This document shows, piece by piece, positions 35,991 through 64,000 of a DNA stretch of 64,000 nt. This DNA is from Pelagibacterium sp. (GTDB lineage Bacteria; Pseudomonadota; Alphaproteobacteria; Rhizobiales; Devosiaceae): assembly GCA_002723255.1 (NCBI GenBank), contig PBNW01000009.1:1-64000 (forward strand), written 5' to 3'. The notes under the pieces were generated by a model. That model was not told the DNA's origin and ran no database searches. It saw only the letters and a program-made list of their open reading frames with translations. Numbering within the stretch: the stretch's first letter is position 1; each line of letters begins with the position of its first letter. A program made the position numbers and the translations under genes.

Positions 35991-35994
35991 TTTC

Positions 35995-40303: not shown

Positions 40304-40326
40304 GGCGCAACCGGATTTTCATACGG

Positions 40327-40356
40327 AAAAGGCGGACCATTCGGTCCGCCTTTTTT
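40327..40356. terminator. Bidirectional rho-independent terminator
   Basis: An 8-bp stem GGCGGACC (40331-40338) / GGTCCGCC (40343-40350) with loop ATTC is flanked by AAAA on the left and TTTTTT on the right. It can therefore terminate both the IalB-like gene (+) and the converging hydroxylase gene (-). The stop codon of the latter lies at the edge of the T-run. Confidence 0.9.
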
Positions 40357-41509: not shown

Positions 41510-41691
41510 TTTCACCTCGATGATTGACCAAGATGTAAGCCGCCGGGATCGCCCTCGCAAGCCGCGCAAATGGCTCTGCCGCTTTATTGCCGTTGTTGCC
41601 CGCAAATGTGCACACATCGCGCGCCGGGGCGGTCGCCGTTCTTGCCATGGGCATCAGATGGATGCCCGTGTTCCAACCGCTGAGGGCAAAA

Positions 41692-42762: not shown

Positions 42763-42770
42763 GCAGGAAT

Positions 42771-43739: not shown

Positions 43740-43808
43740 TTGCCTCTGTCGCGGGGACGAAGGCTGTGATACGGCCTTCGTTCAAGGCGGCAGGCAGGGA
43801 AATAACCG

Positions 43809-44702: not shown

Positions 44703-44778
44703 TCCTCTGGACAGCTTCGCGCCGAACAGCTAAACCGCAAATCAATCGGCCAGCCCTCACATGGGCTTGCGGCTCAAC

Positions 44779-44868
44779 GGGTGGGTGGCAGAGTGGTTGA
44801 TTGCACCGGTCTTGAAAACCGGCGGGCGTGAGAGCGTCTCGGGAGTTCGAATCTCCCCCCACCCGCCA
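44779..44868 (+). tRNA. tRNA-Ser (anticodon TGA)
   Basis: The 90 bases fold as a class II tRNA. The 7-bp acceptor stem GGGTGGG (44779-44785) pairs with CCCACCC, followed by discriminator G and an encoded CCA (44866-44868). The anticodon arm CCGGT-CTTGAAA-ACCGG gives anticodon TGA, followed by a long variable arm. The T loop is GTTCGAATC. It reads UCN serine codons, chiefly UCA. Confidence 0.95.
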
Positions 44869-44886
44869 TCTTCCAGACGCAAGGGG

Positions 44887-45921: not shown

Positions 45922-45933
45922 GATAAAAACTCC

Positions 45934-47115
45934 TTAGACGATAGGATTGCAAGCGGGTTTCGCCAGGGGCCGTCCGACGGTTCGAACGGCAATCAGAGCG
46001 GTGGCGAGGGCGAGAAGCGGAAACAGTGTGGCGATGGCCGGCACGAGGATGAGGCCAGGCCCGTGGTCGATAACCAGGCCGCCAGTCCACGCACCAAGGG
46101 CATTGCCGAGATTGAAAGCGCCGATGTTGAAGCTCGATGCGAGGCTCTGGCCGGCCCCTTCGGCCCTTGAAAGTACCCACATCTGCAGGGGCGCTACCGT
46201 GGCAAATCCGGTCGCGCCAAGCAGGCCGGCGAAAAGCACGGCGGTAAATTGATTGCCGAAGGCAAAACTCATCAGCCCCAGGACGAGGGTGAGTCCCACC
46301 AATGTTCCGAAGATGGAGGGGACAAGGCCCCGGTCGGCGAACCTGCCGCCCAGCAAATTCCCCACAAACAGACCGCCCCCGAACACCAGCAGGATCGGCG
46401 AGACCGCACTGTCGTCAAACCCGCCGATCTCGGTCAGCAAGGGCGCGATATAGGTAAAGACCGCAAAAACACCCGCATACCCGAACACGGTCGTCAAAAG
46501 ACCAAGCAGCACAGGGCGCCGGGCCATGGCGCGGAAATCTGCCCGCCAATCCGATGCTTGCGGTCGTGTTCGGTCTTGGGGCACCAGAAAGGCGAGAACA
46601 GCGATGGCAACGAGCCCCACTCCAGTGACGGCCCAGAAGGTTGCCCGCCAGCCATAGTGTTGGCCAAGCCAGGTACCAAACGGCACGCCGAGGACAGTCG
46701 CCACAGTCAGACCGGTGAACATGATGGCAATGGCCGAAGCGCGCTTGTCCTCGGAAACAAGCCCCGTCGCCACCACAGCGCCGACGCCGAAGAACGTGCC
46801 GTGGGTCAGCGCCGTGAGCACCCGCGCCGCCATCAGCCACCCATAACTCGGAGCGAGAGCGCACGCAGCATTGCCGACGACGAAGATCACCATCAGCCCG
46901 ATCAACACGCGCTTGCGCGGCCAGCGTGCCGTGAGCACGGTAAGCACCGGGGCGCCGACGGTCACGCCAAGCGCGTACCCCGAAATCAAAAGGCCCGCCG
47001 CCGCTATGGTGACGTTCAATTCACGACTGACCTCCAAAAGAAGGCCCATGATGACAAATTCGGTGACGCCAACGCCGAAAGCGCCGACTGTCAGGGCATA
47101 AAGTGCCAAAGGCAT
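45934..47115 (-). CDS. MFS exporter (DHA1, AraJ/YdhP-like)
   Basis: A 12-helix major facilitator of 393 aa. The motif A-like loop between helices 2 and 3 reads VLTARWPRKRVLIG, and LTALTHGTFFGVGAVVAT follows, a pattern of the arabinose-efflux/AraJ-like DHA1 group. The substrate is unknown. It is the first gene of the MFS-aldo/keto reductase operon. The 102 bases to the divergent LysR gene must hold both promoters and the regulator's operator. Confidence 0.88.
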   Translation of the reverse strand: MPLALYALTVGAFGVGVTEFVIMGLLLEVSRELNVTIAAAGLLISGYALGVTVGAPVLTVLTARWPRKRVLIGLMVIFVVGNAACALAPSYGWLMAARVLTALTHGTFFGVGAVVATGLVSEDKRASAIAIMFTGLTVATVLGVPFGTWLGQHYGWRATFWAVTGVGLVAIAVLAFLVPQDRTRPQASDWRADFRAMARRPVLLGLLTTVFGYAGVFAVFTYIAPLLTEIGGFDDSAVSPILLVFGGGLFVGNLLGGRFADRGLVPSIFGTLVGLTLVLGLMSFAFGNQFTAVLFAGLLGATGFATVAPLQMWVLSRAEGAGQSLASSFNIGAFNLGNALGAWTGGLVIDHGPGLILVPAIATLFPLLALATALIAVRTVGRPLAKPACNPIV

Positions 47116-47217
47116 ATGAAATCTCTATCCATCCAAAACTGATGTCCGAAAGATAGACCTTCGGTACGCGATGAAATAGAATGCCTTCTGGAATAGCACT
47201 TGTGAGATGAAGTCATT

Positions 47218-48123
47218 ATGGCGCGACTTGACGTCAACCGATCCGGCGAGATGGAAGTGTTTGTGCGGGTGGTCGAACTCGGCGGCTTTTCGCCCGCCGC
47301 CCGCGCCGGACGCATGACGCCCTCGGCCGTGAGCAAGCTGATCGCGCGGCTGGAAGCCCGGCTCGGCGCCCGATTGCTCAATCGCTCGACTCGCCAACTC
47401 CAGCTGACGCCCGAGGGCTGCACCTTCTATGAGCGCGCAACACGCGTTCTGGCTGATCTCGAAGATGCCGAACGGGCAGCAAGCATTGGCGAGGAGGCGA
47501 TTGGACGGGTGCGCATCAACACCAGCGCATCCTACGCCACCCATATCCTTGCACCATTGCTGCCCGATTTTCTCGCGCGCCACCCCGGTGTCACCCTCGA
47601 CATCGTGCAAACCGATGCCGTGGTCGATCTTCTGGCCGAACGCATGGATGTCGCGATCCGGGCCGGACCGTTAAAAAGTTCGAGCCTTGTTGCCCGCAAG
47701 CTTGGTGAAACGCCGCTGCTGATCGTTGCCGCGCCATCCTATCTCGAACGTCGCGGCGAACCGCACAGCATCGCTGATCTTCAAAACCATGACCGCCTCG
47801 GTTTCGGATACGCCCGCGCCGTCGACGGCTGGGCACTTTGCGAGAATGGCAAAGCCGTTGTTGTGCCGGCCACGGGTCGTGTGCAAGTGAGCGACGGTGA
47901 GGCGTTGCGCCAGCTGGCTCTGTCCGGCGTAGGTCTCGCCAGGCTCGCTGCCTTTACCGTGAGAGACGATATCGCAGCGGGGCGCCTCGTCCCGGTGCTC
48001 GGCCACCTTGTCTCTGGCGACCCTGAACCCTTCCACGCCGTCTATGTGGGGCAGGGCGGCCCTCTCCCCTCGCGTGTCAGGGCACTGCTCGATTTCCTCG
48101 CCAGATATGGAAGAGTTGCCTGA
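47218..48123 (+). CDS. LysR-family transcriptional regulator
   Basis: 301 aa with an N-terminal winged helix-turn-helix (about 8-66; GGFSPAARAGRMTPSAVSKLIARLE is interrupted by no gap) and a C-terminal LysR substrate-binding domain. It resembles the DsdC/AaeR-like group of small LysR regulators found beside MFS pumps. Divergent orientation to the MFS-AKR operon makes that operon the likely target; the inducer is unknown. Confidence 0.9.
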   Translation: MARLDVNRSGEMEVFVRVVELGGFSPAARAGRMTPSAVSKLIARLEARLGARLLNRSTRQLQLTPEGCTFYERATRVLADLEDAERAASIGEEAIGRVRINTSASYATHILAPLLPDFLARHPGVTLDIVQTDAVVDLLAERMDVAIRAGPLKSSSLVARKLGETPLLIVAAPSYLERRGEPHSIADLQNHDRLGFGYARAVDGWALCENGKAVVVPATGRVQVSDGEALRQLALSGVGLARLAAFTVRDDIAAGRLVPVLGHLVSGDPEPFHAVYVGQGGPLPSRVRALLDFLARYGRVA

Positions 48124-48149
48124 CCCTTTGAAAGGACACGCCCGACATA

Positions 48150-48173
48150 AAAAGACCCCTGCCAAGGCAGGGG
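48150..48173 (-). terminator. Terminator of the minus-strand PRC-barrel gene
   Basis: CCCCTGCC (48156-48163) and GGCAGGGG (48166-48173) form an 8-bp stem with a 2-base spacer, so the real loop takes the innermost pairs. On the minus strand a CTTTTTAT run follows. It sits between the convergent LysR gene and the PRC-barrel gene and may weakly terminate the former too. Confidence 0.75.
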
Positions 48174-48198
48174 CCCTTTGCGTCTTCGCGTCATGCAA

Positions 48199-48501
48199 TC
48201 AATGATGATGATGCTCGGGCATGTCCTCGAGCGCATCCTTGGTCCAGCCGGTTACCGCATGCACTTCGCCATTTTCATCACGCATGAAATCGAGCTGATT
48301 GACAGCGACGGCGACGGGTTTGGACCCGATGCCGAGAAATCCACCGACATCGATCACCGCCTGGGCGCTCGCACCCACGCCATGCAGGTGTGACACCTTT
48401 CCGACTTTGTGGTCGTCGGCGCCGTAAACGGTGGCGTCCTGCAAGGTTGCTTCATTGAGCTCGGCTTCGCTGAGGCGAACATGATTGGAGTGATCCATCA
48501 T
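48199..48501 (-). CDS. Small PRC-barrel-like protein with His-rich tail
   Basis: 100 aa. The central part (VYGADDHKVGKVSHLHG and VIDVGGFLGIGSKPVAV) fits a PRC-barrel domain, as in the gene at 8237. The end, PEHHHH, is naturally His-rich and could bind metal. GAGGAG precedes the start; the first two codons are both ATG. Proteins of this type are common, multi-copy and uncharacterised in rhizobia. Confidence 0.78.
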   Translation of the reverse strand: MMDHSNHVRLSEAELNEATLQDATVYGADDHKVGKVSHLHGVGASAQAVIDVGGFLGIGSKPVAVAVNQLDFMRDENGEVHAVTGWTKDALEDMPEHHHH

Positions 48502-48615
48502 TAAGGCTCCTCTTTTTTGAGTGTGCAGGGTTAACCTGCGAGCCCCTCGTCCGTTCCCGTCGTAAACACCTGTTTGCCGCCACTGTCCGTCGGACGTCGC
48601 CTCACGCCCGCTCAG

Positions 48616-48861
48616 CTAGAATTCGGACTCGCCGGCGCCCGGCGCGCGCAGGTCCTCGGCGCTGGGCAGAGTCCCCGGATTTGTAGAGAAAGTGGCGGCC
48701 ACGCCGAGCTTGTGCGATGTCGTACAGCCATTGGGCTCGAAATTGCTCGCCACGCACTCGACTTCGATCTTCTGGCTGACATCGAGTTCGGGGTTTCCCG
48801 AAGAGGTCGAGGAACATCCAGCAAGGACAATAAGGAAAATGACGGCAGCTGCAGGTTTCAT
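48616..48861 (-). CDS. Small putative lipoprotein
   Basis: 81 aa starting at MKPAAAVIFLIVLAGCSS. The short hydrophobic signal ends in the lipobox VLAGC, so Cys16 is the likely lipidated residue. The mature part has two further cysteines (ECVASNFEPNGC), possibly a disulfide. I do not recognise the family. The frame is open upstream to 48999, but the signal peptide identifies the start. Confidence 0.68.
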   Translation of the reverse strand: MKPAAAVIFLIVLAGCSSTSSGNPELDVSQKIEVECVASNFEPNGCTTSHKLGVAATFSTNPGTLPSAEDLRAPGAGESEF

Positions 48862-48959
48862 AAAGCGCGTCTCGGCAATCGATCGGATGTCGATCCTATG
48901 CCCGGAACGATGGAAACTTTCCAGCGTTTTCGACAGCCACCGCGATCGTTTGGCCGGCC

Positions 48960-49199
48960 CTAGCGCGGTTCGCTTTCGCCCTTGTGCCGAAAGGCCCATT
49001 GCGGCACCACGATCACATTGCCATCGCGCTCGCCGCCATTGCGTTTATAGGCAAGCTCCCACGCGCGCTCGATGATTTCCTCGATCGAGAGGCTCAGGCA
49101 ACTCGGCAGGCTCTGCGAACGGCCGAGATTTTCCAGAACCGCCTCGGCCTGACCGCATAGGGCGCGTTGCTGCAATGTTTCTGATGGCATATGTTTCAT
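48960..49199 (-). CDS. Hypothetical small protein
   Basis: About 79 aa from the ATG at 49199 (MKHMPSETLQQR); an in-frame ATG at 49280 would give 106 aa with a less natural N-terminus, and neither has a strong ribosome binding site. The sequence is mixed-charge, with a helical SLSIEEIIERAWELAYKRNG segment and a C-terminal VIVVPQWAFRHKGE. No signal or membrane segment. Function unknown. Reading-frame support is moderate. Confidence 0.5.
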   Translation of the reverse strand: MKHMPSETLQQRALCGQAEAVLENLGRSQSLPSCLSLSIEEIIERAWELAYKRNGGERDGNVIVVPQWAFRHKGESEPR

Positions 49200-49283
49200 G
49201 GCCGCATCTGACCATAAAGATGCCAAAACCCGGCAAACGCATTTCGGAAAAATTGAATAAATCCAATCGCGCAGGATCAATCT

Positions 49284-49487
49284 CTAGGGAAGACTGGGCG
49301 GCTCACGATCATTTTTGTCGCTATCGGGCATGCGCTGATAGCGCCGCCGCGTGATGATATACATGACAACCGCCACGACCAGCGCACCCCCGAGCATCAC
49401 GAACCCGAACTCCGCCGCCGAAAGCCCCAGCGTCAGCAATGCAACCACCAGAACGACGAGACTGGCCGCTATAATGAAAATCCGCAT
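49284..49487 (-). CDS. Small two-helix membrane protein
   Basis: 67 aa with two membrane helices (about 2-21 and 26-46) and a short, highly charged cytoplasmic tail rich in Arg, Asp and Pro. The ATG at 49487 is supported by GGAGG 5 bases upstream. No family recognised. It lies 84 bases before the hypothetical gene ending at 48960, on the same strand. Confidence 0.62.
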   Translation of the reverse strand: MRIFIIAASLVVLVVALLTLGLSAAEFGFVMLGGALVVAVVMYIITRRRYQRMPDSDKNDREPPSLP

Positions 49488-49587
49488 CTTGCCTCCATCC
49501 TGATGGTCATGGTGTCGTGTTTGACTTGCCAATGCAAGCACACCCGGCTACGCCGTGACAGGCGTTGAAAAAGGGCAGGGGCACGCA

Positions 49588-50250
49588 GTGGACAGCGTTA
49601 TCGAGATCGTTCCCACACTCATGCCGCTCGGCGACAGCGGCGTTCTCGTGCGCTTTGCCGATCGCCTCGATCTCCAAGCCAACGCGGCAGCCATCGCTTT
49701 CGCAAGAAACCTCGAATCCAGCCCCATTCCTGGCGTTGTCGAAATCGTCCCCAATCTCGTCTCGGTCCTGGTGCGCTATGATCCCCGACGCATCGGCTTT
49801 GCCGGCCTGTGCGGCGAGTTGCGACTCATCGACCGTGACATCGAGAACACCGAACCACCGACCAATCACCGGATAGAGATTGCCTATGGTGGCGAGGATG
49901 GTCCCGATCTCGAGGCGGTGGCCGCAGAACTCGGACTGACGGTTCCCGCCTTCATCGCTGCGCACGCTGCGGAGCGTCTGGATATCCTCGCCGTCGGCTT
50001 TGCCCCGGGATTTGTCTATTGCGGCATGCACGCCGACGACCTGCTCGTGCCGCGCCGCGAAACCGTCAGGCGCTCGGTTCCGCCCGGCAGCATCCTTTTC
50101 GCCGCCCGCCAGACAGCCATCGCCGCCACTCCCGTGCCTACCGGATGGGCCGTGATCGGGCGGACCAGCCTCATCAATTTCGACCCGGCCGCTTCCCCGC
50201 CCACGCGGTTGCGGGCAGGGGATACGATCACCTTTGAGACGGCCCCATGA
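49588..50250 (+). CDS. pxpB: 5-oxoprolinase subunit PxpB (KipI family)
   Basis: Subunit B of the ATP-dependent 5-oxoprolinase, which opens pyroglutamate to glutamate. About 220 aa from the GTG at 49588 (AGGGG 6 bases upstream); an earlier GTG at 49555 is possible. Family marks are LGDSGVLVRF near the start, GFAPGFVYCGM and PRRETVRRSVPPGS. It overlaps pxpC by four bases (ATGA). The family was once annotated as KipI or allophanate hydrolase subunit 1; the company of pxpC and pxpA supports 5-oxoprolinase. Confidence 0.92.
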   Translation: MDSVIEIVPTLMPLGDSGVLVRFADRLDLQANAAAIAFARNLESSPIPGVVEIVPNLVSVLVRYDPRRIGFAGLCGELRLIDRDIENTEPPTNHRIEIAYGGEDGPDLEAVAAELGLTVPAFIAAHAAERLDILAVGFAPGFVYCGMHADDLLVPRRETVRRSVPPGSILFAARQTAIAATPVPTGWAVIGRTSLINFDPAASPPTRLRAGDTITFETAP

Positions 50251-51149
50251 GCCGCATCGCTCTCACCCGCGTCAGCCCGATGACCACAATCCAGGACGAC
50301 GGACGTCCCGGTCTCTTTGCCCACGGCATCGGTGCATCCGGCCCCATGGACCGCAACGGTTATGCGACGGCCGCCGCCATCACCGAAGTGCCTTGCGGTG
50401 CCGCCATCGAAATCGGGCCGCTCGGTCTCGATTTCACCTATCGCGGCGATCCGCTGTCTGCCGGCATGGCCGGAGGAACGTTTACGCTAACTGTCGATGG
50501 TGAGCCTCGACCTTGGCCGGCCCGCCTCGACCTCGTCGAAAACACGAAAATCTCCATAAAGCCCGGCCCTCAGGGCAATTACGCCTATCTTCGCTTTGCG
50601 GCCCAGATCGACGTTCCGCTCATCCTCGGCAGCCGCTCAACCAACGCAACGGTAGGGCTGGGCGGCTTGGATGGCCGCATGCTGGCGGCCGGAGACGAAC
50701 TCAGCCTGATTGATCTGACCGATACCGGCCCCGAGCTGACTCGTCCTGAGACCGCCTCGCCTGGCGACCCGATCCGCTTCGTCTGGGGCATTCACGCCGA
50801 TCTGTTTCCAGCCCCGATCCGCTCGGCATTTACCACTTCCGATTTCCGCATCTCATCGCGCATGGACCGCATGGGCGTCAGGCTCGACGACACCGGATCC
50901 GTCTTCGCCGACGCAAAACTGCTCAACCTCGTCTCCGATGCCGTCGTCCCCGGCGACGTCCAGATCCTGGGCGACGGCACCCCGATCATCCTTATGCGCG
51001 ACAACCAGCCGACCGGTGGCTATCCCCGCATCGGCACGGTCATCGATGCCGATCTCGACCGCTTTGCCCAGATTCGCGCCGGCAAGATGGTGCGCTTCGA
51101 ACCCGTCAGCGTGGCGCACGCTCACAGGATATCGAAATGGCTGCCCTGA
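50247..51149 (+). CDS. pxpC: 5-oxoprolinase subunit PxpC (KipA family)
   Basis: 300 aa. It works with PxpB, probably in the ATP-dependent phosphorylation step. Typical segments are TTIQDDGRPGLFAHGIGASGPMDR at the start (shown in part: QDDGRPG), VGLGGLDGRMLAAGD, and near the end ILMRDNQPTGGYPRIGTV. Start overlaps the pxpB stop; its own end overlaps pxpA by 13 bases, so the three are translationally coupled. Confidence 0.92.
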   Translation: MSRIALTRVSPMTTIQDDGRPGLFAHGIGASGPMDRNGYATAAAITEVPCGAAIEIGPLGLDFTYRGDPLSAGMAGGTFTLTVDGEPRPWPARLDLVENTKISIKPGPQGNYAYLRFAAQIDVPLILGSRSTNATVGLGGLDGRMLAAGDELSLIDLTDTGPELTRPETASPGDPIRFVWGIHADLFPAPIRSAFTTSDFRISSRMDRMGVRLDDTGSVFADAKLLNLVSDAVVPGDVQILGDGTPIILMRDNQPTGGYPRIGTVIDADLDRFAQIRAGKMVRFEPVSVAHAHRISKWLP

Positions 51150-51868
51150 TCGATCTCAACGCCGATCTGGGCGAGGGCATCGGCGACGACCTTTCTATGC
51201 TCGGAATCGTCACCAGCGCCTCGATCGCCTGCGGCGGCCACGCCGGCAACGCGCAAACCATGCGCGCGGCCGTCCGTGGAGCGCAGGCCAATGGCGTCCG
51301 CATCGGCGCCCATCCCGGTTTTGAGGACCCGGACAATTTCGGCCGCCTTCGCCTCGATCTGCCCTTCGAGACCATCCGCGATCAGGTTCTGGCCCAGATC
51401 GCCCGCCTCGCATCCATCGCGGCGGAGGAGGGGGCTCCGATCTCCTATCTCAAGCTTCACGGCGCGCTCGCCAACATGGCCGCGGAGGACGAAGCGCTTT
51501 CTCATGCCGTCTTCGCGGGCGTTGCCCGAGCGTATCCAGGTCTGGCCATTCTCGCCCTCGCGGCTTCCGCCCAGGAAAGCGCCGCGAAACAACTCGGTCT
51601 CCCCGTCATCGCTGAAGCCTATGCCGATCGCGCCTATAGGCCCGACGGATTGCTGGCCGCCCGCAGCCTGCCGGGCGGCGTCATTGAGGATACCGCCGCC
51701 GTCGTCGCCCGATGCCTGCGGCTCGCCGAGCAGGGCGAAATCATCGCCATCGACGGCACGGCCTTCAAATCCGACGCCCGCTCTATCTGCCTGCATGGCG
51801 ACACATCGGGCGCCCTCGAACATGCCCGCGCGGTGCGCGATGCCCTCAGATCTCGCAATCTGATGTAA
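51137..51868 (+). CDS. pxpA: 5-oxoprolinase subunit PxpA (LamB/YcsF family)
   Basis: 243 aa. Hydrolytic subunit of 5-oxoprolinase. The N-terminal IDLNADLGEG and the segment SIACGGHAGNAQTMRAAV are diagnostic, followed by GAHPGFEDPDNFGR and YLKLHGAL. Together with pxpB and pxpC this makes a complete salvage route for 5-oxoproline, which forms spontaneously from glutamine and glutamate. Confidence 0.94.
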   Translation: MAALIDLNADLGEGIGDDLSMLGIVTSASIACGGHAGNAQTMRAAVRGAQANGVRIGAHPGFEDPDNFGRLRLDLPFETIRDQVLAQIARLASIAAEEGAPISYLKLHGALANMAAEDEALSHAVFAGVARAYPGLAILALAASAQESAAKQLGLPVIAEAYADRAYRPDGLLAARSLPGGVIEDTAAVVARCLRLAEQGEIIAIDGTAFKSDARSICLHGDTSGALEHARAVRDALRSRNLM

Positions 51869-52041
51869 CGCACCGACCCTAAAGTTTGCCGCCGCGTTAA
51901 GAAAACCTACACAAACCTATGGTTTCTGGAAGGTTCGATGCGCGAAGGCACCGGCAGTCGCCTGGGAGTGCTTTCAGCACGAGTTGAGCCGGCCTTGCGG
52001 TTCGAAAGCACGACAATCTTGTTAGTATTGGGTCAGATTGT

Positions 52042-53103
52042 ATGAGCTCGAATATCGGATCGGCGCGCCGCCGTTCTCTTTTTGCCGCTTTTGGCACCTC
52101 GGTTGCCGCCGCCGTGCTGCTGGCCGGATGCACCGGTGCAGACTTGTTTGCAGGCAATGAGTTCTTCTCCGAATCCTCGATGGGCGTCAAAGCCTCGCCC
52201 CGGGTCACGACCTCGCGCAACGTCCCCAAGGGCGGCGGTCGCTATGTTGTCGGCCAACCCTATACGGTCGCTGGCAACCGCTTCGTGCCGCGCGAGCAAC
52301 CCGACCTCGACGTGACGGGCCGCGCCTCGTGGTACGGACCGGCCTTCCATGGCCGGCTGACCGCAAATGGCGAAGTCTTCGACATGTACGCGCTCTCGGG
52401 AGCTCACCCGACGCTGCCCCTGCCATCCTACGTCCGGGTGACCAACGCCGATAACGGCGCTTCGACGATCGTCCGCATCAACGATCGCGGTCCGTTTTCC
52501 TATGAGCGCACCGTCGATCTCTCCCGCCGCGCCGCTGAAGTTCTCGGTTTCCAGCAGCAGGGTACGGCCAATGTCCGCGTGCAGTATATCGGACCGGCTC
52601 CGCTCGAGGGCGATGACACCAAGTTCCTCGTCGCCTCGATCAACCAGTTGACCCCCTATGAGATCCAGAACAACACGCGCATGGCCTATCAGGAACCCGT
52701 GCAGGTCGCACAGGCCAGCCCTGAACCCGCCGCATCTCCCGCGGCCGCCCCGACGCCAGTTCCGCGTCCCGCAACGGCTTCGGAGGCCGCCGGCAGTATT
52801 GCCGCGCCCGAATATATCCCCTTCCGGGTCCTGTCCTACGCTGGCGCAACATCCCTTGAAACGACGTCCGAACCCAACGGAACGCCCGTTCGGATGGCGC
52901 TCGGCACCTGGAATGATGAAGCGGCTGCCCGCGACATCGCCACTCGGTTTGCTCTTCTTGGCGCCGTCGACACCACCACGGTGGTTCAGGGCGATCAGGC
53001 AGTCACCCATCTCATGCTCACCCATCTTCGCGAAGGTGTGACCGAAACCGACGCCGTGGATATGGCAACATCACTTGGCTTATCCTCCCCGACTTTGTAT
53101 TGA
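52042..53103 (+). CDS. rlpA: RlpA-like lipoprotein with SPOR-like end
   Basis: 353 aa. Signal peptide with lipobox LLAGC (Cys near residue 30). A double-psi beta-barrel follows (about 90-190), with GRASWYGPAFHGRLTANGEVFDM and the catalytic Asp region RINDRGPF. The C-terminal 80 residues, after a Pro/Ala linker, resemble a SPOR domain that would bind denuded peptidoglycan at the septum. RlpA family members are lytic transglycosylases acting in cell separation. It precedes the carboxypeptidase gene, another wall enzyme, by 49 bases. Confidence 0.88.
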   Translation: MSSNIGSARRRSLFAAFGTSVAAAVLLAGCTGADLFAGNEFFSESSMGVKASPRVTTSRNVPKGGGRYVVGQPYTVAGNRFVPREQPDLDVTGRASWYGPAFHGRLTANGEVFDMYALSGAHPTLPLPSYVRVTNADNGASTIVRINDRGPFSYERTVDLSRRAAEVLGFQQQGTANVRVQYIGPAPLEGDDTKFLVASINQLTPYEIQNNTRMAYQEPVQVAQASPEPAASPAAAPTPVPRPATASEAAGSIAAPEYIPFRVLSYAGATSLETTSEPNGTPVRMALGTWNDEAAARDIATRFALLGAVDTTTVVQGDQAVTHLMLTHLREGVTETDAVDMATSLGLSSPTLY

Positions 53104-53152
53104 GGGACCAAGGCTTAGCTTAAAAAAGGGCGCCGCAACGCGGCTGGTTCTC

Positions 53153-54319
53153 ATGGTTCGTCTGGAACGTACCTGGCGCGTAATCTTCGTTGGACTGGCC
53201 ATCATCGCTGCTCTGGCCCACCCGGCCAACGCCCAGCTCGATTTCGACACCAGCGCTCCATACGCCATTCTGGTCGATCATGAATCGGGCACGGTGCTGT
53301 TTCAGAAAGAGGCCGACACAAGGATCGAACCGGCCAGCATGGCCAAGCTGATGACGGTCGCAATCGTCCTCGACATGGTCGAACGCGGCGCGCTCAACCT
53401 CACCGATCAGTTCTTCATATCCGAACACGCATGGCGAACCGGCGGAGCGCCCTCGGGTGGCTCGGCGATGTTCGCCGAACTCGGTTCGCAAATCAGCGTC
53501 GATGATCTGTTGCACTCGGTGATCATCCAGTCGGGCAATGATGCCTCCATCGCGCTGGCCGAAGGCATCGCCGGCAGCGAACCGGCCTTCGCCGATATCA
53601 TGAACGAGTTTGCCCTGGACATCGGGCTCACCGATTCCCATTTCACAAATGCCAGCGGGCTGCCTGATCCTGACATGTACGTCACGGCCCGCGATCTGGC
53701 CAATCTTGCCCGCTACATCATCCATGAGTTTCCCGATTACTATCCGGTCTTCGCCATCGAAGAATTCACTTGGAACGATATCCGCCAATCCAACCGCAAT
53801 GGACTTCTCGGGCTCGGCATCGGGGTCGATGGCCTCAAGACAGGGCACACCGAATCTGCAGGCTATGGCATCGTCGCTTCGACCACAGAAGGCGGGCGTC
53901 GCCTCATAGCTGTTCTGCACGGCATGGACAGCGTCAACCAGCGCAATGAGCAGGCGCGCGCCCTCATCACGTGGGGCTCCCGCAGCTTCGAGCGCATCCC
54001 CGCCTTCGCGAACGGCGCAATCGTTGGCGAAGCCAGCGTCTATGGCGGCGAACGGGCCAGCGTTGGCCTAGTCGGCGAAGGCAGCATCGATATCTACCTG
54101 CCGCGCGGCAATCGCCGCTGCCTTTCCGCCAGTATCACCTATGCCGCGCCGATCCTTCCCCCGGTCCGCGCCGGCGACAGGCTTGCGCAACTCAACATAC
54201 TTTGCGATGACCAGATCATTCAGACCGCGCCGCTTTACGCGGCAGAGGCTGTCGGACAAGGTGGCATCATGCGGCGGGCGACCGACGCGCTTTGGGAACT
54301 GGCGTTCGGCTGGTTTTGA
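53153..54319 (+). CDS. dacF: D-alanyl-D-alanine carboxypeptidase (PBP5/6 type)
   Basis: 388 aa. A periplasmic penicillin-binding protein that trims the terminal D-Ala of peptidoglycan stem peptides. Signal peptide 1-26 (ends ANAQ). Catalytic motifs: SxxK as SMAK, SxN as SGND, and KTG in GLKTGHTESAG. A PBP5-like C-terminal domain follows. The ATG at 53153 is chosen for the signal peptide. Symbol by similarity of context (dacF-tmk-holB); other dac names are possible. Confidence 0.9.
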   Translation: MVRLERTWRVIFVGLAIIAALAHPANAQLDFDTSAPYAILVDHESGTVLFQKEADTRIEPASMAKLMTVAIVLDMVERGALNLTDQFFISEHAWRTGGAPSGGSAMFAELGSQISVDDLLHSVIIQSGNDASIALAEGIAGSEPAFADIMNEFALDIGLTDSHFTNASGLPDPDMYVTARDLANLARYIIHEFPDYYPVFAIEEFTWNDIRQSNRNGLLGLGIGVDGLKTGHTESAGYGIVASTTEGGRRLIAVLHGMDSVNQRNEQARALITWGSRSFERIPAFANGAIVGEASVYGGERASVGLVGEGSIDIYLPRGNRRCLSASITYAAPILPPVRAGDRLAQLNILCDDQIIQTAPLYAAEAVGQGGIMRRATDALWELAFGWF

Positions 54320-54369
54320 CACCGGGTGATTTCGGTCTGGCGGCCGCAACAGGATTTGATACGGACACG

Positions 54370-55062
54370 ATGGCGGCAGATCAGCACCGATCGATCACAC
54401 CCCGATTCATAACGTTCGAGGGCGGGGAGGGCGTGGGCAAGTCCACCCAGGTCCGCCGTCTGGCCGACCGGCTGTCCGAATACGGCATTTCGGTGGTCCG
54501 CACCCGTGAGCCCGGCGGCACACCAAAGGCCGAGGCCGTCCGCTCCTTCATCCTGCAGGGCAAGCCCGAAAGCTGGGGCGTAGGTGCAGAGGCTGTGCTG
54601 TTTGCCTCCGCCCGCCTCGATCACGTCAACCAGTTGATCGCGCCCTCGCTGGCCGAGGGCAAATGGGTCATCTGCGACCGCTTCGCCGATTCGACCCGCG
54701 CCTATCAGGGCCTGACCGGCGGTGTCGATGACAAACTGATCGATGCACTCGAACATCTCGCCCTCAACGGCCATACGCCCGAGCTCACCGTCATACTCGA
54801 CATGGATCCTGACATCGCCTTTGAGCGCGTGCGCAAACGCGCCACGGAAGACGGCATGCCCGCCATCGCCGACCGCTTCGAAAAAGAGGACCTCGCCTTC
54901 CATCGCCGCCTGCGCGACAATTTCCTTGCCATAGCGATATCCAATCCCGGACGCTGCGTTGTCCTGTCGGCCGATACCGAAGAAGACGTCCTCACCGTAG
55001 CGATCTGGCGCGCCGTGCTCGATCATTTCCCCGATCTGGCCCGCGAAGGATTGGCCGGGTGA
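54370..55062 (+). CDS. tmk: Thymidylate kinase
   Basis: 230 aa. Phosphorylates dTMP to dTDP. Walker A FEGGEGVGKST near residue 18, the DR(Y/F) motif in CDRFADSTRAYQG, and LID region RVRKRATEDG. The start at 54370 (MAADQHRSITPRF) leaves a short N-terminal extension. It overlaps holB by four bases (GTGA), so the two are translated together. Confidence 0.95.
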   Translation: MAADQHRSITPRFITFEGGEGVGKSTQVRRLADRLSEYGISVVRTREPGGTPKAEAVRSFILQGKPESWGVGAEAVLFASARLDHVNQLIAPSLAEGKWVICDRFADSTRAYQGLTGGVDDKLIDALEHLALNGHTPELTVILDMDPDIAFERVRKRATEDGMPAIADRFEKEDLAFHRRLRDNFLAIAISNPGRCVVLSADTEEDVLTVAIWRAVLDHFPDLAREGLAG

Positions 55063-56090
55063 GTGTAGAACGTCGCGAAGCCGATCAGATCACCGACGTG
55101 CCTGCGCCCGAATTCGGCACGCTTGTCGGCCATGACCAGGCGCGCGCCTCGCTTCTGAGCGCGCTCGAGCGCAATCGCCTGCCCAGCGCCATCCTGCTCC
55201 ACGGCCCGCGCGGTATCGGCAAGGCGACCTTCGCTTTCGACATCGCCCGTCAGGTTCTCTCGCGCACCTCCGATGAATCCGAGGAAAGAATAAGCGCCCA
55301 GGTCGCTGCGCTTTCCCATCCAAACCTGTTCCTGTTGCGCCGCACCACTGATCCCGCAAATTCCGAAAAATACTATTCGGCCATACGTGTCGACGACGTG
55401 CGTGCCATGCGCGACTCCCTGCACCAGACCCGGGGCAGGGCAGGCTACCGCCTCGCCATTGTCGACAGCGTGGACGATTGCAACGCCAATTCGGCCAATG
55501 CGCTCCTCAAGACCCTCGAAGAGCCACCCGCCGACACAATGTTCATCGTGTTGTCCCATCGCCCCGGCGGCATGCTGGCCACAATCCGCTCGCGCTGCCA
55601 GAGTTTTGGCCTGCGCCCGCTCGCCGATCCCGATACGGCACAGGTGATATCGCGTATCCGCCCCGAGCTGGCGGCCCAAGATGTCTCCCGCGCCGTAAGT
55701 TTTGCCGCCGGTCGCCCCCGCCGGGGCTTTGAATCCCTCATGCTTGAGGAAGGCGACGTTCTCGACGCGCTCCGGACCTGGCTAAAAGACCCGTCGGCTC
55801 ACCCTACGCGCGCCCATCTCAAGATTGCCGACGGGCTGGCCGCATCCAAGGGGGCTGAATTGGGCTTTGCCCAGGACATGATCCGCGACTGGCTTGCCAC
55901 CGAGGCGGAAAACGCCGCGCGCGCCGGCCCTGCCGCGCGTTTCCGCCTTGCTTCGACCAATGGCCTGTGGGAGAAGGCCAACGCCCTTATCGCCGATGCC
56001 GATATCTACAATCTTGACCGGCGGCAGACGCTGGTCGCAGTCTTTGATTTCCTGCGCGATCATGTGCGCCGAACCACGCCCGTGAGCTGA
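55059..56090 (+). CDS. holB: DNA polymerase III subunit delta prime
   Basis: 343 aa. Clamp-loader subunit. AAA+ fold with [18 protein letters not shown] (Walker A region), the motif [14 protein letters not shown], and the sensor segment [10 protein letters not shown] (SRC motif). The zinc-binding cysteines found in many delta-prime proteins are not evident. GTG start overlapping the tmk stop. metG follows after 7 bases. Confidence 0.92.
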
Positions 56091-56097
56091 TTTTCCT

Positions 56098-57651
56098 ATG
56101 AGCCGCCCGACCTTCTACATCACCACGCCGATCTTTTATCCCAACGGCGTCCCCCATATCGGCCATGCCTATACCGCCATTGCCAGTGACGTTATCGCGC
56201 GCTTTCACCGGCTGGACGGCAAGGATGTGTTTTTTCTGACCGGCACCGACGAGCATGGCCAGAAGATGCAGCAGACCGCCGAAAAAGAGGGGATCACCCC
56301 GATCGAGCTGGCGACCAAAAACTCGCAGGCCTTCAAGGACCTCTGGGCGACCCTCAACATCTCTTACGACGACTACATCCGTACAACCGAGGAGCGGCAC
56401 CATAAGGCCTCGCAAGCCATCTGGAACAAGATGGTCGAAAAGGGCGATATCTACCTCGACTCCTACTCCGGCTGGTATTCGGTCCGGCAGGAAGCCTTCT
56501 TCGACGAAAAGGAAACCACGCTCGGCGAGGACGGCATCCGGCGCGAACCGCTCGGCTCACCCGTCGAATGGGTGGAAGAGGAAAGCTATTTCTTCCGCCT
56601 CTCTGCCTATGGCGACAAACTGCTCGCCCACTATGAGGCAAACCCCGGGTTCATCCTGCCCGCCGAGCGGCGCAACGAAGTGGCCAGCTTCGTCAAATCG
56701 GGCCTGCGCGACCTTTCGATCTCGCGCACCACGTTCGATTGGGGCGTGCCCGTACCCAACGATCCCAAGCACATCATGTACGTCTGGGTCGACGCGCTGA
56801 CCAATTACATTACCGCCGCGGGCTATCCCGATGAGAATGCCGAGCGCTGGAAATACTGGCCCGCCGATATTCATATGATCGGCAAGGACATTGTGCGCTT
56901 CCACGCCGTCTATTGGCCTGCCTTCCTCATGAGCGCCGATATCGAGTTGCCCAAACGCGTCTTTGCCCACGGTTTCCTGTTCAACCGCGGCGAGAAGATG
57001 AGCAAATCGGTCGGCAACGTCGTCGATCCCTTCGAACTCGTCGCGAAATACGGCCTCGATGCCATGCGGTATTACTTCCTGCGCGAAGTCTCGTTCGGCA
57101 GCGACGGCTCGTACAATCACGAAGCCATCGTCAACCGCATCAATGCCGACCTCGCCAACGATCTGGGCAATCTCGCCCAGCGCTCGCTGTCCATGGTCGC
57201 CAAGAACTGCGAAGGGCAGGTGCCCACCCCAGGCGAATTGACGGACGAAGACAACGCCATTCTTGGCGCCGCCGATGCCCTGCTCGAAACGTCCCGAACC
57301 GCGATGGACGATCAGGCCATCCACCAGATGCTCAACGCCGTCTGGCAGGTGGTGGCCGATGCCAACCGGTACTTTGCGGGGCAGGAGCCCTGGGCGCTGC
57401 GCAAGACCGACCCGGCCCGCATGGCGACCGTGCTCTATGTGACAATCGAGGTGGTGCGTCAGGTTGCCATTCTCGCCCAGCCGGTGATGCCCGCATCGAG
57501 CGAAAAACTGCTCGATCTTCTGGGTCTGCACGCAGAGGGCCGCTCTTTCGAGCAACTGGGTTCCTACGGCCGCCTCGCCGCAGGCACCGCACTGCCCGCG
57601 CCAGAGGGGGTCTTCCCCCGCTATGTGGAAAAGGACGAAGGCGCAGCCTGA
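56098..57651 (+). CDS. metG: Methionyl-tRNA synthetase
   Basis: 517 aa, class Ia. The HIGH box is PHIGHAYT (residues about 19-26) and the KMSKS box [10 protein letters not shown] (about 299-308). It is the shorter type, without the four-cysteine zinc knuckle and without the C-terminal EMAP-like dimerisation domain; this form is normal in alphaproteobacteria. Its stop overlaps the tatD start by one base (TGATG). Confidence 0.96.
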
Positions 57652-58433
57652 TGCTTGTCGATAGCCACTGCCACCTCGATTTCGACGTCCTTGCCGACGA
57701 TATCGACGGCGTTCTTTCGCGCGCCCGCGACAATGGAGTGAGCCATTGCGTCACCATCTCCACCCGCATTCGGCGCTTTGAAGCGCTCCTCGCCATTGCC
57801 GAAACGCATGAAAACGTCTTTTGCTCTGTCGGCACACATCCGCACAATGCACATGAAGAACTCGATGTAAGCGTCGACGAAATAATCGCTTTATCCCAGC
57901 ATCCCAAATGCGTCGCCATCGGCGAGGCCGGCCTCGACTACCACTACGATTCCTCGCCCCGTGACGCCCAGGCTCAGGGATTCCGCAATCACATCGCCGC
58001 CGCCCGCCAGACGGGCCTGCCGCTGGTCATCCACGCCCGCTCCGCCGATGACGACATGATCGCCATTCTCGAGCAAGAAACCGGGCAGGGGGCCTTCCCC
58101 TTCGTGCTGCACTGCTTTTCCTCCGGCGCCGAACTGGCCCGTCGCGGCCTGGCGCTTGGCGGTTATGTCTCGTTTTCCGGCATCGTCACCTTCAAGAACG
58201 CCGCCGAAATCCAGGACGTCGCCAAATTCGTTCCCGACGACCGGTTCCTGGTCGAGACGGACGCGCCCTATCTCGCGCCGGTTCCCCATCGCGGCAAACC
58301 CAACCAGCCCGCCTTCGTGCGCCACACCGCCGAAAAGCTGGCCGAATTGCGCGGCGTTCCGTTCGAAACCATCGCCGAGCAATCGACCCGCAATTTCGCT
58401 CGCCTGTTCTCAAAGACAGGGCTGACCGTATGA
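57651..58433 (+). CDS. tatD: TatD-family metal-dependent DNase
   Basis: 260 aa. TIM-barrel hydrolase with the metal ligands DSHCHLDF at the N-terminus, GEAGLDYHYD, VIHARSADDD, VLHCFSSG and VETDAPYL. TatD-type enzymes have 3'-5' DNase activity and act in DNA repair or fragmentation; YcfH-like members sit beside tmk-holB as here. ATGA overlap with the next gene. Confidence 0.93.
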   Translation: MLVDSHCHLDFDVLADDIDGVLSRARDNGVSHCVTISTRIRRFEALLAIAETHENVFCSVGTHPHNAHEELDVSVDEIIALSQHPKCVAIGEAGLDYHYDSSPRDAQAQGFRNHIAAARQTGLPLVIHARSADDDMIAILEQETGQGAFPFVLHCFSSGAELARRGLALGGYVSFSGIVTFKNAAEIQDVAKFVPDDRFLVETDAPYLAPVPHRGKPNQPAFVRHTAEKLAELRGVPFETIAEQSTRNFARLFSKTGLTV

Positions 58434-59254
58434 GCGACAGACCCGCCACCCGGCTCACCGCCCGTATTCTGGGCTGCGGTTCGTCCGGCGGCGTGCCGCG
58501 TATCGGCAATGTCTGGGGCGCCTGCGATCCCGAAAATCCAAGGAACCGCCGTCTGCGCTGCGCCCTGCTGATCACCGGCACGCGCGACGATACCGACGGC
58601 ATCACCCGTGTTCTTATCGACGCCGGACCCGACCTGCGCGAGCAGATGCTCGCCGCACAGGTGCCAGAGATCGATGCCGTATTTTTCACCCATGAACATG
58701 CCGACCACACCCACGGCATCGACGATCTGCGCGTTCTGGCTCTCAACGCCAAACGCCGCGTCGACGCCTACATGTCGACGGCGACCGAAGTGCGGCTGCG
58801 CGAAGCCTTCGGCTATTGCTTTACAGCACCCCAGGGCAGCTCCTACCCACCGATTCTCAACACGAACTCCATTGCCGACGGCGAGGAAATCGTCATCGAT
58901 GGGGCAGGGGGCACCGTCACTCTACGGCCCTTCGAACAGCAGCACGGCTCGATCACTTCGCTCGGTTTCCGTATAGGTAAATTCGCCTATTCCTGCGATC
59001 TTTCGGGTATTCCCGAAACGTCGCACTGGGCAATCGAGAACCTCGACACCTGGGTCCTCGATGCATTGCGCTACACACCCCATCCGAGCCATCTCGATCT
59101 TGAACAGGCTCTGGCGCTGATCGAAACACATCGGCCGCAACAGGCCGTACTCACCAATCTCCACGTCGATCTGGACTATGTGACCCTCGGCGCCGAAACC
59201 CCGGGTAACGTCACACCGGCCTTTGACGGCATGGAGATCGACATCAGGCTTTAG
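58430..59254 (+). CDS. Metallo-beta-lactamase-fold hydrolase (PhnP-like)
   Basis: 274 aa. Opens with LGCGSSGGVPRIG and has the metal-binding HEHADHTHG, with further ligands downstream (FEQQHGS, DLSGI, TNLHVDLDY). This group is related to PhnP phosphodiesterase and RNase Z-like enzymes; the true substrate in the tmk-holB-metG-tatD cluster is unknown. The start overlaps the tatD stop, so all are likely one operon. Confidence 0.9.
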   Translation: MSDRPATRLTARILGCGSSGGVPRIGNVWGACDPENPRNRRLRCALLITGTRDDTDGITRVLIDAGPDLREQMLAAQVPEIDAVFFTHEHADHTHGIDDLRVLALNAKRRVDAYMSTATEVRLREAFGYCFTAPQGSSYPPILNTNSIADGEEIVIDGAGGTVTLRPFEQQHGSITSLGFRIGKFAYSCDLSGIPETSHWAIENLDTWVLDALRYTPHPSHLDLEQALALIETHRPQQAVLTNLHVDLDYVTLGAETPGNVTPAFDGMEIDIRL

Positions 59255-59289
59255 GACCGCTACGGTTTCGTCTCACGCGAGCGCCCGCC

Positions 59290-60702
59290 ATGAGCAATCC
59301 TGCCGACAGTTCCCAAACCCCCATCCGCGACACGCACTGGGTGCTTCCCACCACCATTCTGGGCTCCAGCCTGGGCTTTATCGACGGCTCGGTGGTCAAT
59401 GTCGCCTTGCCCGCCATACAGTCCGACCTCGATGCCGGGCTCGCAACTGCCCAATGGGTGGTCAACGGCTACATGCTCATGCTCGGCAGCCTCATCCTGC
59501 TTGGCGGCACAATCGGCGACCGCTTCGGCCAGCGCCGGGTCTTTCTTTTCGGCCTTGTCGGCTTTGCCTTGGCCTCCATCGCCTGCGCGCTCGCCCCGTC
59601 CCCACTGGCCCTCGTTGTCGCGCGGACAATCCAGGGGATCGCCGCTGCCTTCCTCGTCCCGTCCAGCCTGGCCCTGATCGGCTCTGCTTTCACTGGCGAA
59701 GCACGCGGCAAGGCCATAGGCACGTGGGCGGCAGCAGGAGCACTCACTACCGCACTCGGCCCGCCCTTTGGCGGCTGGCTCGTCGATACGGTTGGCTGGC
59801 GGGCCATCTTTTATATCAACATTCCCATTGCCGCCGCCGCGCTGGCCATGGGCTGGCGCATCGCCGCAGCACCCTCTGGCCGCACCCATCGCGAGTTCGA
59901 CATTGCCGGCACGATCGCCATGGTCGCAGGGCTCGGCCTGCTCTCTTACGGCCTCATCACCGCCGGCGAGGGCAATACAACCAACGGTAGCCTCGCCATT
60001 GCCGCTTCAATTCCCTTCGCCATCGCCTTTTTCTTCATTGAGCGCCGCGCCGGCGAACCGCTCGTGCCCATGGGGCTGTTCGCCAACAGTCAGTTTTCCG
60101 GCGCAAACCTGCTCACCATAACCCTCTATGCTTCGCTTTCAGGCTCTCTGTTCATCCTGCCTTTCGTCTTGATCTACGCAAACGGCTACAGCGCCACCAT
60201 GGCCGGCGCCGCGCTGTTGCCGTTCTCGATCCTGCTCGGACTGGGCTCGCGCTATGCCGGCGCGCTGGCCAAGCGCATCGGCACCCGCATCATGCTGATC
60301 GCCGGGCCGGCAGCCACCGGCGTCGGCTATGTGGTCCTGGCCCTGATGGTCGACCTCGGCGGATATTGGATGGCCTTCTTCCCGGGCCTCGTCATCATCG
60401 GGGTGGGCATGACGATAACCGTCGCGCCGCTCACCACTGCCGTGTTCGATGCCGCCCCTGACGATGCCGGCGGCACCGCCTCGGGCATCAACAACGCTGC
60501 CTCGCGCATTGGTGGTCTGGTCGCCGTCGCTGCCCTTGGCTTTGCTTTTGGTGGGTCCGATCTTTCAACCCTGCCACCCGAGGCCCTGCGTATGTCCTAT
60601 CGCTGGATCATGGCCGCAGCCGCCTGCCTGGCCTTCCTGAGCGCGTTGGCAGCCGCCGGCACCATCGGAGTGGGAAAGGGCAGGGCGCAAGAAACCTCCT
60701 GA
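59290..60702 (+). CDS. MFS drug exporter, 14-helix (DHA2, EmrB/QacA-like)
   Basis: 470 aa with about 14 membrane helices. Motif A-like LLGGTIGDRFGQRRVFLFG and motif C-like GPPFGGWLVDTVGWRAIFYINIP (quoted in part: GWRAIFYINIP) mark the EmrB/QacA group of proton-driven multidrug exporters. No EmrA-type adaptor is adjacent, so it may work as a single pump. It lies 35 bases after the hydrolase gene and converges with the DUF4180-like gene. Confidence 0.9.
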   Translation: MSNPADSSQTPIRDTHWVLPTTILGSSLGFIDGSVVNVALPAIQSDLDAGLATAQWVVNGYMLMLGSLILLGGTIGDRFGQRRVFLFGLVGFALASIACALAPSPLALVVARTIQGIAAAFLVPSSLALIGSAFTGEARGKAIGTWAAAGALTTALGPPFGGWLVDTVGWRAIFYINIPIAAAALAMGWRIAAAPSGRTHREFDIAGTIAMVAGLGLLSYGLITAGEGNTTNGSLAIAASIPFAIAFFFIERRAGEPLVPMGLFANSQFSGANLLTITLYASLSGSLFILPFVLIYANGYSATMAGAALLPFSILLGLGSRYAGALAKRIGTRIMLIAGPAATGVGYVVLALMVDLGGYWMAFFPGLVIIGVGMTITVAPLTTAVFDAAPDDAGGTASGINNAASRIGGLVAVAALGFAFGGSDLSTLPPEALRMSYRWIMAAAACLAFLSALAAAGTIGVGKGRAQETS

Positions 60703-62965: not shown

Positions 62966-62993
62966 AAGTTCCATAATATATATTATGCGAATA
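62966..62993 (-). other. dif: Candidate dif site (XerC/XerD chromosome dimer resolution)
   Basis: Read on the minus strand: XerC-like arm TATTCGCATAA (62983-62993), 6-base centre TATATA (62977-62982), XerD-like arm TTATGGAACTT (62966-62976). It agrees with E. coli dif, as I remember it, at 20 of 28 positions, including the CGCATAA and TTATG core. The core (62972-62987) is a perfect 16-base palindrome. The polarity of GGGCAGGG octamers across the window points to it. Orientation of the arms is less certain than the site itself. Confidence 0.75.
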
Positions 62994-63010
62994 ACGGATG
63001 TAGCGGCTAT

Positions 63011-63049
63011 TTAGTAATGCGACACATGGGCCACTTAGAGATGCGACAC
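63011..63049 (+). repeat. Subterminal direct repeats of the IS
   Basis: Two 15-base copies (63011-63025 and 63035-63049) differ at two central positions and share TTAG and ATGCGACAC. Their start-to-start distance of 24 bases is a little over two helical turns, which would place both on a similar face of the DNA for a bound transposase. Confidence 0.7.
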
Positions 63050-63127
63050 CCGCCCCTCTAACTGTGGTCAAGTTCAACATTGGAAGGAAGACTGGCTTCG
63101 ACGACGCTTAGCGCTGACGGAGTTGCC

Positions 63128-64000
63128 ATGTCCTTGATCACCATGTCGCAGAAAGAACTGAACCGCCTCGAAGCCATTCAGAAAATCCGGGCACGCCAAT
63201 TGAGTGTTGTCCAGGCCGCTGAACTGCTCCACATCAGCCGCAGCCAGGTTCACCGGCTCTTGCAAGCCTACGATCGCGCCGGCGCCGATGGTCTTGCGTC
63301 CAAGAAGCGCAGCCGGCCGAGCAATCGCCGCCATACAAACGATTTCCGTAATCATGTGCTCGATCTGGTTCGTGCGCATTATCCGGATTTCGGGCCGACC
63401 TTTGCCCGAGAGAAGCTGGTCGAGCGACATGGCCTCGGGATCAGCAAAGAGACCTTGCGCAAATGGATGATCGAATCTGGGCTCTGGACGTCTCGCCGCG
63501 AGCGCAAGCGGAGGATTTTCCAACCCCGCGGCCGCCGCGATTGTTTTGGAGAGCTGGTGCAGATCGATGGCTCTCATCACTGGTGGTTCGAGGAGCGCGG
63601 CCCCAAGTGCGCCCTGCTCGTTTATATCGACGACGCGACCGGCAAGCTCCTTCACCTGCGTTTTGCCAAGTCCGAGAACACCTTCGACTATTTCCAGGCG
63701 ACGAAGGCTTATTTGCAGGAATGGGGCAAGCCGATCGCCTTCTATAGCGATAAGCACGGCGTTTTCCGCACCACGCATGCCTCCGAGAAGGACCGCACCA
63801 GCGGGTTCACCCAGTTCGGCCGCGCCCTTTATGAGCTCAATATCGACATCATCTGCGCAAACACGCCGCAGGCCAAGGGCCGTGTGGAGCGCGCCAACCT
63901 CACTCTGCAAGACCGACTGGTCAAGGAGCTTCGGCTACGCCGGATCTGCACCATCGAGGCTGCAAACGCTTACGTTTCCGAGTTTATCGCAGATTTCAAC
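63128..64000 (+). CDS. IS1202/ISNCY-like transposase (cut by window end)
   Basis: The first 291 codons are open without a stop. An N-terminal helix-turn-helix (LSVVQAAELLHISRSQVHRLL) is followed by a second one (KETLRKWMIESGLW) and a DDE integrase core. The catalytic residues visible are Asp in ELVQIDGSHHWW, Asp in AFYSDKHGVF and Glu in KGRVERANLTLQ. The pattern is that of transposases filed as ISNCY or IS1202 in databases; IS481 is a more distant alternative. The C-terminal part lies beyond 64000. Confidence 0.88.
   Translation, partial: MSLITMSQKELNRLEAIQKIRARQLSVVQAAELLHISRSQVHRLLQAYDRAGADGLASKKRSRPSNRRHTNDFRNHVLDLVRAHYPDFGPTFAREKLVERHGLGISKETLRKWMIESGLWTSRRERKRRIFQPRGRRDCFGELVQIDGSHHWWFEERGPKCALLVYIDDATGKLLHLRFAKSENTFDYFQATKAYLQEWGKPIAFYSDKHGVFRTTHASEKDRTSGFTQFGRALYELNIDIICANTPQAKGRVERANLTLQDRLVKELRLRRICTIEAANAYVSEFIADFN

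Follow-up and report, generated by a model that had tools for sequence, protein, structure and literature searches.

A chromosomal dif site of Pelagibacterium with an IS1202-family element 5 bp outside its XerC arm

We are highly confident that the 28-bp site near the right edge of the analysed stretch of Pelagibacterium sp. DNA (64,000 nucleotides, hereafter the window) is the chromosomal dif of this bacterium, presumably used by XerC/XerD, and that an insertion sequence of the IS1202 family has inserted 5 bp outside its XerC arm. The site, its conservation in relatives, the polarity of the octamers around it, the 5-bp spacing and an empty counterpart are directly visible in the DNA. Both dif and the element belong to already known kinds, of which this locus is another instance. 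The locus fixes the terminus of the Pelagibacterium chromosome by independent evidence and presents an IS1202 'dif hunter' beside the chromosomal dif of an alphaproteobacterium, the empty counterpart being known in the same species.

The dif site and its conservation

On the minus strand the site reads TATTCGCATAA-TATATA-TTATGGAACTT, i.e. two 11-bp arms around a 6-bp spacer, in agreement with the consensus of the lineage (Table 1). Hereby, the XerC arm is the right-hand one, and dif thus reads on the minus strand. Compared to the A. tumefaciens dif, as given in the accessible part of PMC2731167, 26 of 28 bases are identical (2 mismatches). Searching the window for the A. tumefaciens site with up to 3 mismatches returns this single match, and 0 of 100 shuffles contain one; the palindrome CATAATATATATTATG, searched with the same tolerance, likewise occurs once in the window (chance expectation 0.01). 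The first-pass annotation had described the two arms around TATATA, a perfect 16-base palindrome and an agreement of 20 of 28 bases with E. coli dif. Arms and palindrome are present as claimed, and recomputation with the E. coli letters (taken from an excerpt of PMC3025954) gave the same figure on the minus strand; no other position of the window exceeds 17.

Table 1. Features of the window and related positions; strands refer to the window.
Feature	Position	Strand	Basis or remark
Chromosomal dif	62966..62993	minus	arms assigned against published dif sites
XerC arm TATTCGCATAA	62983-62993		right-hand arm of dif
Spacer TATATA of dif	62977-62982		
XerD arm TTATGGAACTT of dif	62966-62976		
Perfect 16-base palindrome CATAATATATATTATG	62972..62987	no strand	core of dif
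5-bp ACGGA	62994..62998	no strand	between XerC arm and element
Left part of 2,017-bp IS1202-family (ISNCY) element	62999..64000	plus	continues to G000:C9:65015; tips TGT...ACA
Terminal-repeat box CTATTTAGTAATGCGACAC, putative transposase binding site	63007..63025	plus	sequence; binding suggested by the accessible part of PMC10132070
Second internal box copy ACTTAGAGATGCGACAC	63033..63049	plus	sequence
Transposase ORF, 446 aa	63128..64000, stop ends at C9:64468	plus	NCBIfam transpos_ISNCY_2
MFS-transporter-like gene	59290..60702	plus	XerD side of dif; from reading the translation
GGGNAGGG octamers pointing at dif	719..60678	21 on plus, 1 on minus	
Secondary dif-like sites	G167:C1:1247556, G001:C1:3353530, G011:C42:70404, G000:C45:126, NZ_CP146276 (L028)		

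To evaluate conservation we used the pattern TTCGCATAA-N6-TTATGGAAC with at most 2 mismatches. As this pattern was derived from the window site, the match of the window itself proves nothing, whereas matches in other genomes do. Among 61 genomes drawn from genus, family and order, 56 contain the pattern (35 of 40 genera), while the reversed control pattern is found in 1 of 61. A single match occurs in 44 of the 56 matching genomes; the other 12 contain extra matches with differing spacers. Within the family, 36 of 37 genomes match (own genome included), the sole exception, G018, being 71% complete, and 32 of these 36 carry the spacer TATATA. The TATATA site occurs once in the own assembly and once in the chromosome of the same species; dif is thus unique on the chromosome and conserved in relatives. 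Judged from these sequences, TTATGGAAC is the usual dif arm in the family and common in the order. A comparison with the dif sites of relatives had been called for at first pass, and both the family matches and the 26 identities with A. tumefaciens dif speak for the site.

In the accessible part of PMC2731167, the dif sites of other Hyphomicrobiales (A. tumefaciens, Mesorhizobium loti, Brucella chromosome I) share with the present one the length of 28 bp, the XerC and XerD arms, the 6-bp spacer, the XerD arm TTATGGAAC and the location at the terminus, and a table there already holds this arm for Agrobacterium, Brucella and Mesorhizobium. They differ in the spacer, which is GATATA or GATAGA compared to TATATA here, and in 1-3 bases at the start of the XerC arm, and here an insertion sequence adjoins the site.

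An empty counterpart is found in G167, a genome of the same species with a 3,695,125-bp contig. Positions 52983-62999 of the window are 98.7% identical to this chromosome over 10 kb, and its dif lacks the element, yet the XerC arm is followed by the identical 5 bp, which read TCCGT on the dif strand. Because ACGGA is identical to the flank of this empty site, we read it as the left copy of a target duplication. In a congener (G001), a homologue of the MFS-like gene likewise adjoins dif on the XerD side, the XerC side holding ORFs read as glmS and glmU, and the XerC side of the G167 dif aligns to this glmS-glmU stretch.

Position at the replication terminus

We located dnaA in 16 relatives, in 10 of which it shares a contig with dif (different contigs in 6). 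In these ten the distance between dnaA and dif amounts to 0.33-0.50 of the contig, nine falling between 0.43 and 0.50 and one, G054, at 0.33; measured in relatives, dif thus lies roughly opposite the origin. The contig of G167 opens with dnaA-, dnaN- and recF-like ORFs, identified by reading the ORFs, and its dif at 1,994,239 is at 0.46 by the shorter way.

The octamer GGGNAGGG, the FtsK-orienting sequence (KOPS) of E. coli, converges on dif. In the 140 kb around dif of G167 (~70 kb each way), the ratio of plus to minus copies is 18:0 on the left and 1:21 on the right, and the polarity flips between -2,886 and +2,306 bp of dif, i.e. within 5.2 kb. In the window, the part left of dif holds the 21 plus and 1 minus copies of Table 1, compared to 3.1 and 7.5 expected from a first-order model (60 simulations). 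Stretches sampled from the chromosome arms gave the same picture, with 33:6 on the left and 5:43 on the right in 20 stretches of G167, and 43:4 and 2:28 in 19 stretches of G001, where stretch L029 was left out because of its position before dnaA. This octamer polarity is the strongest evidence that the chromosome arms meet at dif.

A turning point of the GC skew at ~63 kb, which had been suggested as a further mark of the terminus, was not found at dif, and the octamer polarity was used in its place. Throughout the window the skew is negative up to dif, while in G167 it is positive on both sides near dif and, on one side, turns negative at a distance of ~20 kb. Close to dif the sign is thus the reverse of what is usually expected. 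Sampling two relatives with single-contig chromosomes, 20 stretches of 20 kb per genome, the arm means differ by only ~0.02-0.03, values that are weak and noisy, and the skew in these stretches points to no other terminus site. Being weak, noisy and of the wrong sign near dif, GC skew was dropped as a terminus marker; a turning point is a usual correlate of dif, not its defining feature. The placement of the replication terminus at ~63 kb holds on other grounds, namely the position of dif roughly opposite dnaA in relatives and the reversal of GGGNAGGG in G167.

In conclusion, conservation, the position roughly opposite dnaA, the chromosomal flank shared with the same species and the reversal of octamer polarity bear out the earlier assignment of the site as chromosomal dif. 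That it is a plasmid dif-like site (pdif) instead, the contig being a plasmid and not chromosome, appears very improbable. Such a reading would account for the DNA to the right of the element, which is 99.3% identical to a P. nitratireducens plasmid with a dif-like site of its own. The plasmid site, however, differs in spacer (TTTACA) and XerC arm, the 10 kb on the left share 98.7% identity with a 3.7-Mb chromosome around the single TATATA site of the latter, and the octamer polarity turns here. A chance palindrome or a terminator in place of dif is still harder to believe: AT-rich palindromes can act as terminators or operators, but the A. tumefaciens match is absent from all 100 shuffles and the pattern recurs in 35 of 40 genera, and a palindrome of that kind would also have to fall roughly opposite dnaA and where the octamer polarity turns.

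Taking the site as chromosomal dif, we infer its operation by analogy with the known system. XerC would occupy positions 62983-62993 and XerD positions 62966-62976. FtsK, if it reads the octamers in this genus, would be steered by the GGGNAGGG copies converging from both chromosome arms and bring dif to the septum; recombination by XerCD at TATATA would resolve chromosome dimers. Since the 28 bases and the native 5-bp flank are unchanged compared to the empty site, dif should still be functional beside the element.

The IS1202-family element and the join to plasmid DNA

To the right of position 62998 no chromosome follows; instead there is an element of the IS1202 family and, beyond the window, plasmid-type DNA. 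The first-pass annotation missed this element, which is a known kind of 'dif hunter'. Its left end faces dif and is separated from the XerC arm by exactly 5 bp, as in the ISAjo2 group. The transposase ORF matches NCBIfam transpos_ISNCY_2 with E=1.4e-148 and contains the D, D and E motifs with a Q at E+7, matching the IS1202 family. Further hallmarks of the family are the TGT/ACA tips, imperfect terminal repeats and an internal second box, the inner box being repeated at both ends. Downstream of the transposase stop, the last ~0.5 kb of the element contain no ORF longer than 73 or 74 aa.

The bounds of the element were set from the contig beyond the window and from the complete P. nitratireducens plasmid NZ_CP146276. 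In this plasmid the same element, differing in one base and also 2,017 bp long, occupies a dif-like site of the same species at a distance of 5 bp and is flanked by AAAGG on both sides. AAAGG fixes the right end at C9:65015, in the contig (C9) and the complete plasmid alike; other right ends first considered were ruled out by this duplication. The 5-bp target duplication is thus seen via the plasmid, while at the window dif only the left copy, ACGGA, is seen. The plasmid of the same-species genome G167 coincides with that of P. nitratireducens ZH15.

According to the part of Harmer et al. 2023 (PMC10132070) accessible to us, the IS1202 family includes members whose left end faces a dif or pdif site at a distance of 5 bp from its XerC arm. 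With the ISAjo2-type dif hunters described there, our element shares this spacing and orientation, the TGT/ACA tips, the 5-bp duplication, the internal second repeat box, a transposase of similar size (446 aa) and the Q at E+7. Unlike them, it measures 2,017 bp compared to ~1.5 kb, with ~0.5 kb between transposase and right tip, and resides in an alphaproteobacterial host at a site with the XerD arm TTATGGAAC. ISRel10, ISRel26 and ISMex6 are closer in this respect, being alphaproteobacterial and 5 bp from sites that mostly carry this XerD arm. By analogy, the transposase probably recognised XerC on dif, one possibility proposed in the same source.

Right of the element, the contig matches the P. 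nitratireducens plasmid at 99.3% identity up to 68,750 and contains an IS30 gene, a regulator and a metal ATPase. The element is flanked by ACGGA on the left and by AAAGG, the flank of the plasmid, on the right; given this mismatch and the plasmid-type DNA that follows, the element is the point at which chromosome and plasmid are connected in the contig. Another contig of the assembly, C45, carries the plasmid-like left half (99.2% over 5,990 bp) together with a left end of the element and AAAGG. A right-hand copy of ACGGA is absent from the assembly, in which a single right end, with AAAGG, was found; the assembly is 84% complete and also yielded no chromosomal far side of the element. Comparison of the assembly with the glmS-glmU stretch of the congener gave one 58-bp match and none past the glmS cut-off.

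Two explanations fit this join. We favour, with moderate confidence, an assembly chimera via two 2-kb copies of the element, the cell containing dif-element-chromosome and plasmid-element-plasmid separately. A near-identical repeat of 2,017 bp in an assembly of 80 contigs, the start of C45 inside the element with 82 bases exactly shared, and the same-species plasmid being continuous through the join point are all in line with this explanation, whereas one would then expect a second right end of the element, which was not found in the assembly. The less likely, though still quite conceivable, explanation is a real fusion of plasmid and chromosome, arising when the element transposed replicatively from plasmid to dif or when two of its copies recombined. 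Hereby, the left flank would be that of the target (ACGGA) and the right flank that of the donor (AAAGG), as in a replicative cointegrate, and the contig with the other half of the plasmid indeed ends in a left end of the element with AAAGG. Against a fusion speak the two left ends of this genome, which differ by 2 bases within the 118 bases compared, the single right end found and the missing chromosomal far side in the 84% complete assembly.

Transposase families at dif-like sites

To evaluate whether relatives of the element share its target, we examined 46 named loci encoding relatives of the transposase, of which 17 were dropped (3 without left flank, 14 without a recognisable tip). In the remaining 29 loci the left tip is recognisable by motif, and in 26 of them a dif-like site, defined as at least 13 of 18 template positions (maximum 18), lies at a distance of 5 bp (23) or 6 bp (3), although these 26 are not independent, as several Rhizobium entries share one insertion. 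Only 22 of 92,000 random placements reach the same threshold. Of the three misses (L062, L083, L100), L083 and L100 are real, while L062 was counted as such because the leftmost of two tip matches was taken; it has 16/18 at 5 bp. The XerD arm starts with TTATGGAAC in 21 of the 26 dif-like sites. In the complete chromosome of Mesorhizobium sp. AR07 such a site beside a partial element is identical to the published M. loti dif.

As far as the accessible text of PMC10132070 goes, the targets of ISRel10, ISRel26 and ISMex6 resemble pdif only loosely and perhaps are degenerate or follow another consensus. Its Table 8 lists nine targets for these three, eight of which carry TTATGGAAC. Our data touch on this question in that the 'loosely resembling' rhizobial targets mostly carry the dif arm usual in these bacteria. 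In the part of PMC2731167 available to us, 14.2% of 161 dif sites adjoin genes of insertion sequences, transposases or integrases. Five further Mesorhizobium copies of IS1202 type (L075, L077, L079, L081, L088) lie 5-6 bp from sites with a near-intact XerC arm and an altered XerD arm (G..TGGAA); these are perhaps attachment-like sites using XerC only.

An IS30-family clade likewise often adjoins dif-like sites (L109, L110, L107, L160-L174, L205-L222); 13-15 bp separate its end box, GGCACATTC or a similar sequence, from the XerC arm. The sites of G007, a genome of the same genus, match those of the P. luteolum genome; in G007 such an element lies beside the chromosomal dif as well as beside a secondary site. 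Relatives of the IS30 transposase (E up to 1e-60) occur in 10 of 136 family genomes with 15 copies, six with a dif-like site in the stretch examined and nine without. Among 18 plasmid copies, hand-picked for taxon spread among 60 listed of 548 matching records, 12 show a dif-like site of matching orientation 73-86 bp ahead of the gene and six have none, figures obtained with a loosened template and a cut-off chosen after looking. In these 18 loci, 14 of 42,474 placements reach that score, true ones included. Some IS30 copies, e.g. L211, split the left tip of an IS1202 element, as read from the sequence, while the Rhodobacterales copies L214, L216 and L222 show no such tip.

We tentatively propose, as a rather doubtful generalisation, that two unrelated transposase families use the same landing platforms in Alphaproteobacteria, namely dif and plasmid dif-like sites, the IS1202 type at 5 bp and the IS30 clade with its box at 13-15 bp, sometimes splitting an IS1202 tip. 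As part of this proposal, IS1202 transposition from a plasmid into dif would fuse plasmid and chromosome at the terminus, as the contig would show if its join is real. If both families read the Xer complex, dif would be a testable model of targeted insertion without dedicated targeting proteins. Among the titles and abstracts listed for IS30 with dif or Xer and for IS1202 or insertion sequences at dif, none describes the IS30 findings above; subscription papers are mostly outside these searches.

The flank on the XerC side was inspected in 52 chromosomes without a clear insertion sequence. YAYA occurs at -9 to -6 in 14 of them (background 0.9%), or in 9 of 33 when one per genus is counted, and C at -11 in 30 of 52; the tip TACA of the insertion sequences falls on the same place as YAYA. 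Such a flank may represent an accessory motif native to these chromosomes and lying beyond the 28 bp, or else the footprints of past insertions. The idea of scars left by lost elements at dif sites without insertion sequence was not adopted because the C preferred at -11 differs from the base of the element tip. A transposase homologue was found in 4 of 27 dif-bearing loci scanned (L006, L156, L128, L124). Of 14 sites with TACA at -9 to -6, four have this transposase and three an IS30 gene in the stretch examined, the rest showing a tip-like end only.

In addition, chromosomes of Pelagibacterium and one plasmid repeatedly show a secondary dif-like site, its spacer being TTAACA or TTTACA (Table 1). 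A cytochrome P450 gene lies beside it, annotated in the plasmid and recognised by DNA similarity or ORF reading in three of the four others, namely G167, G011 and G000. Secondary site and P450 gene possibly form a dif module of Pelagibacterium.
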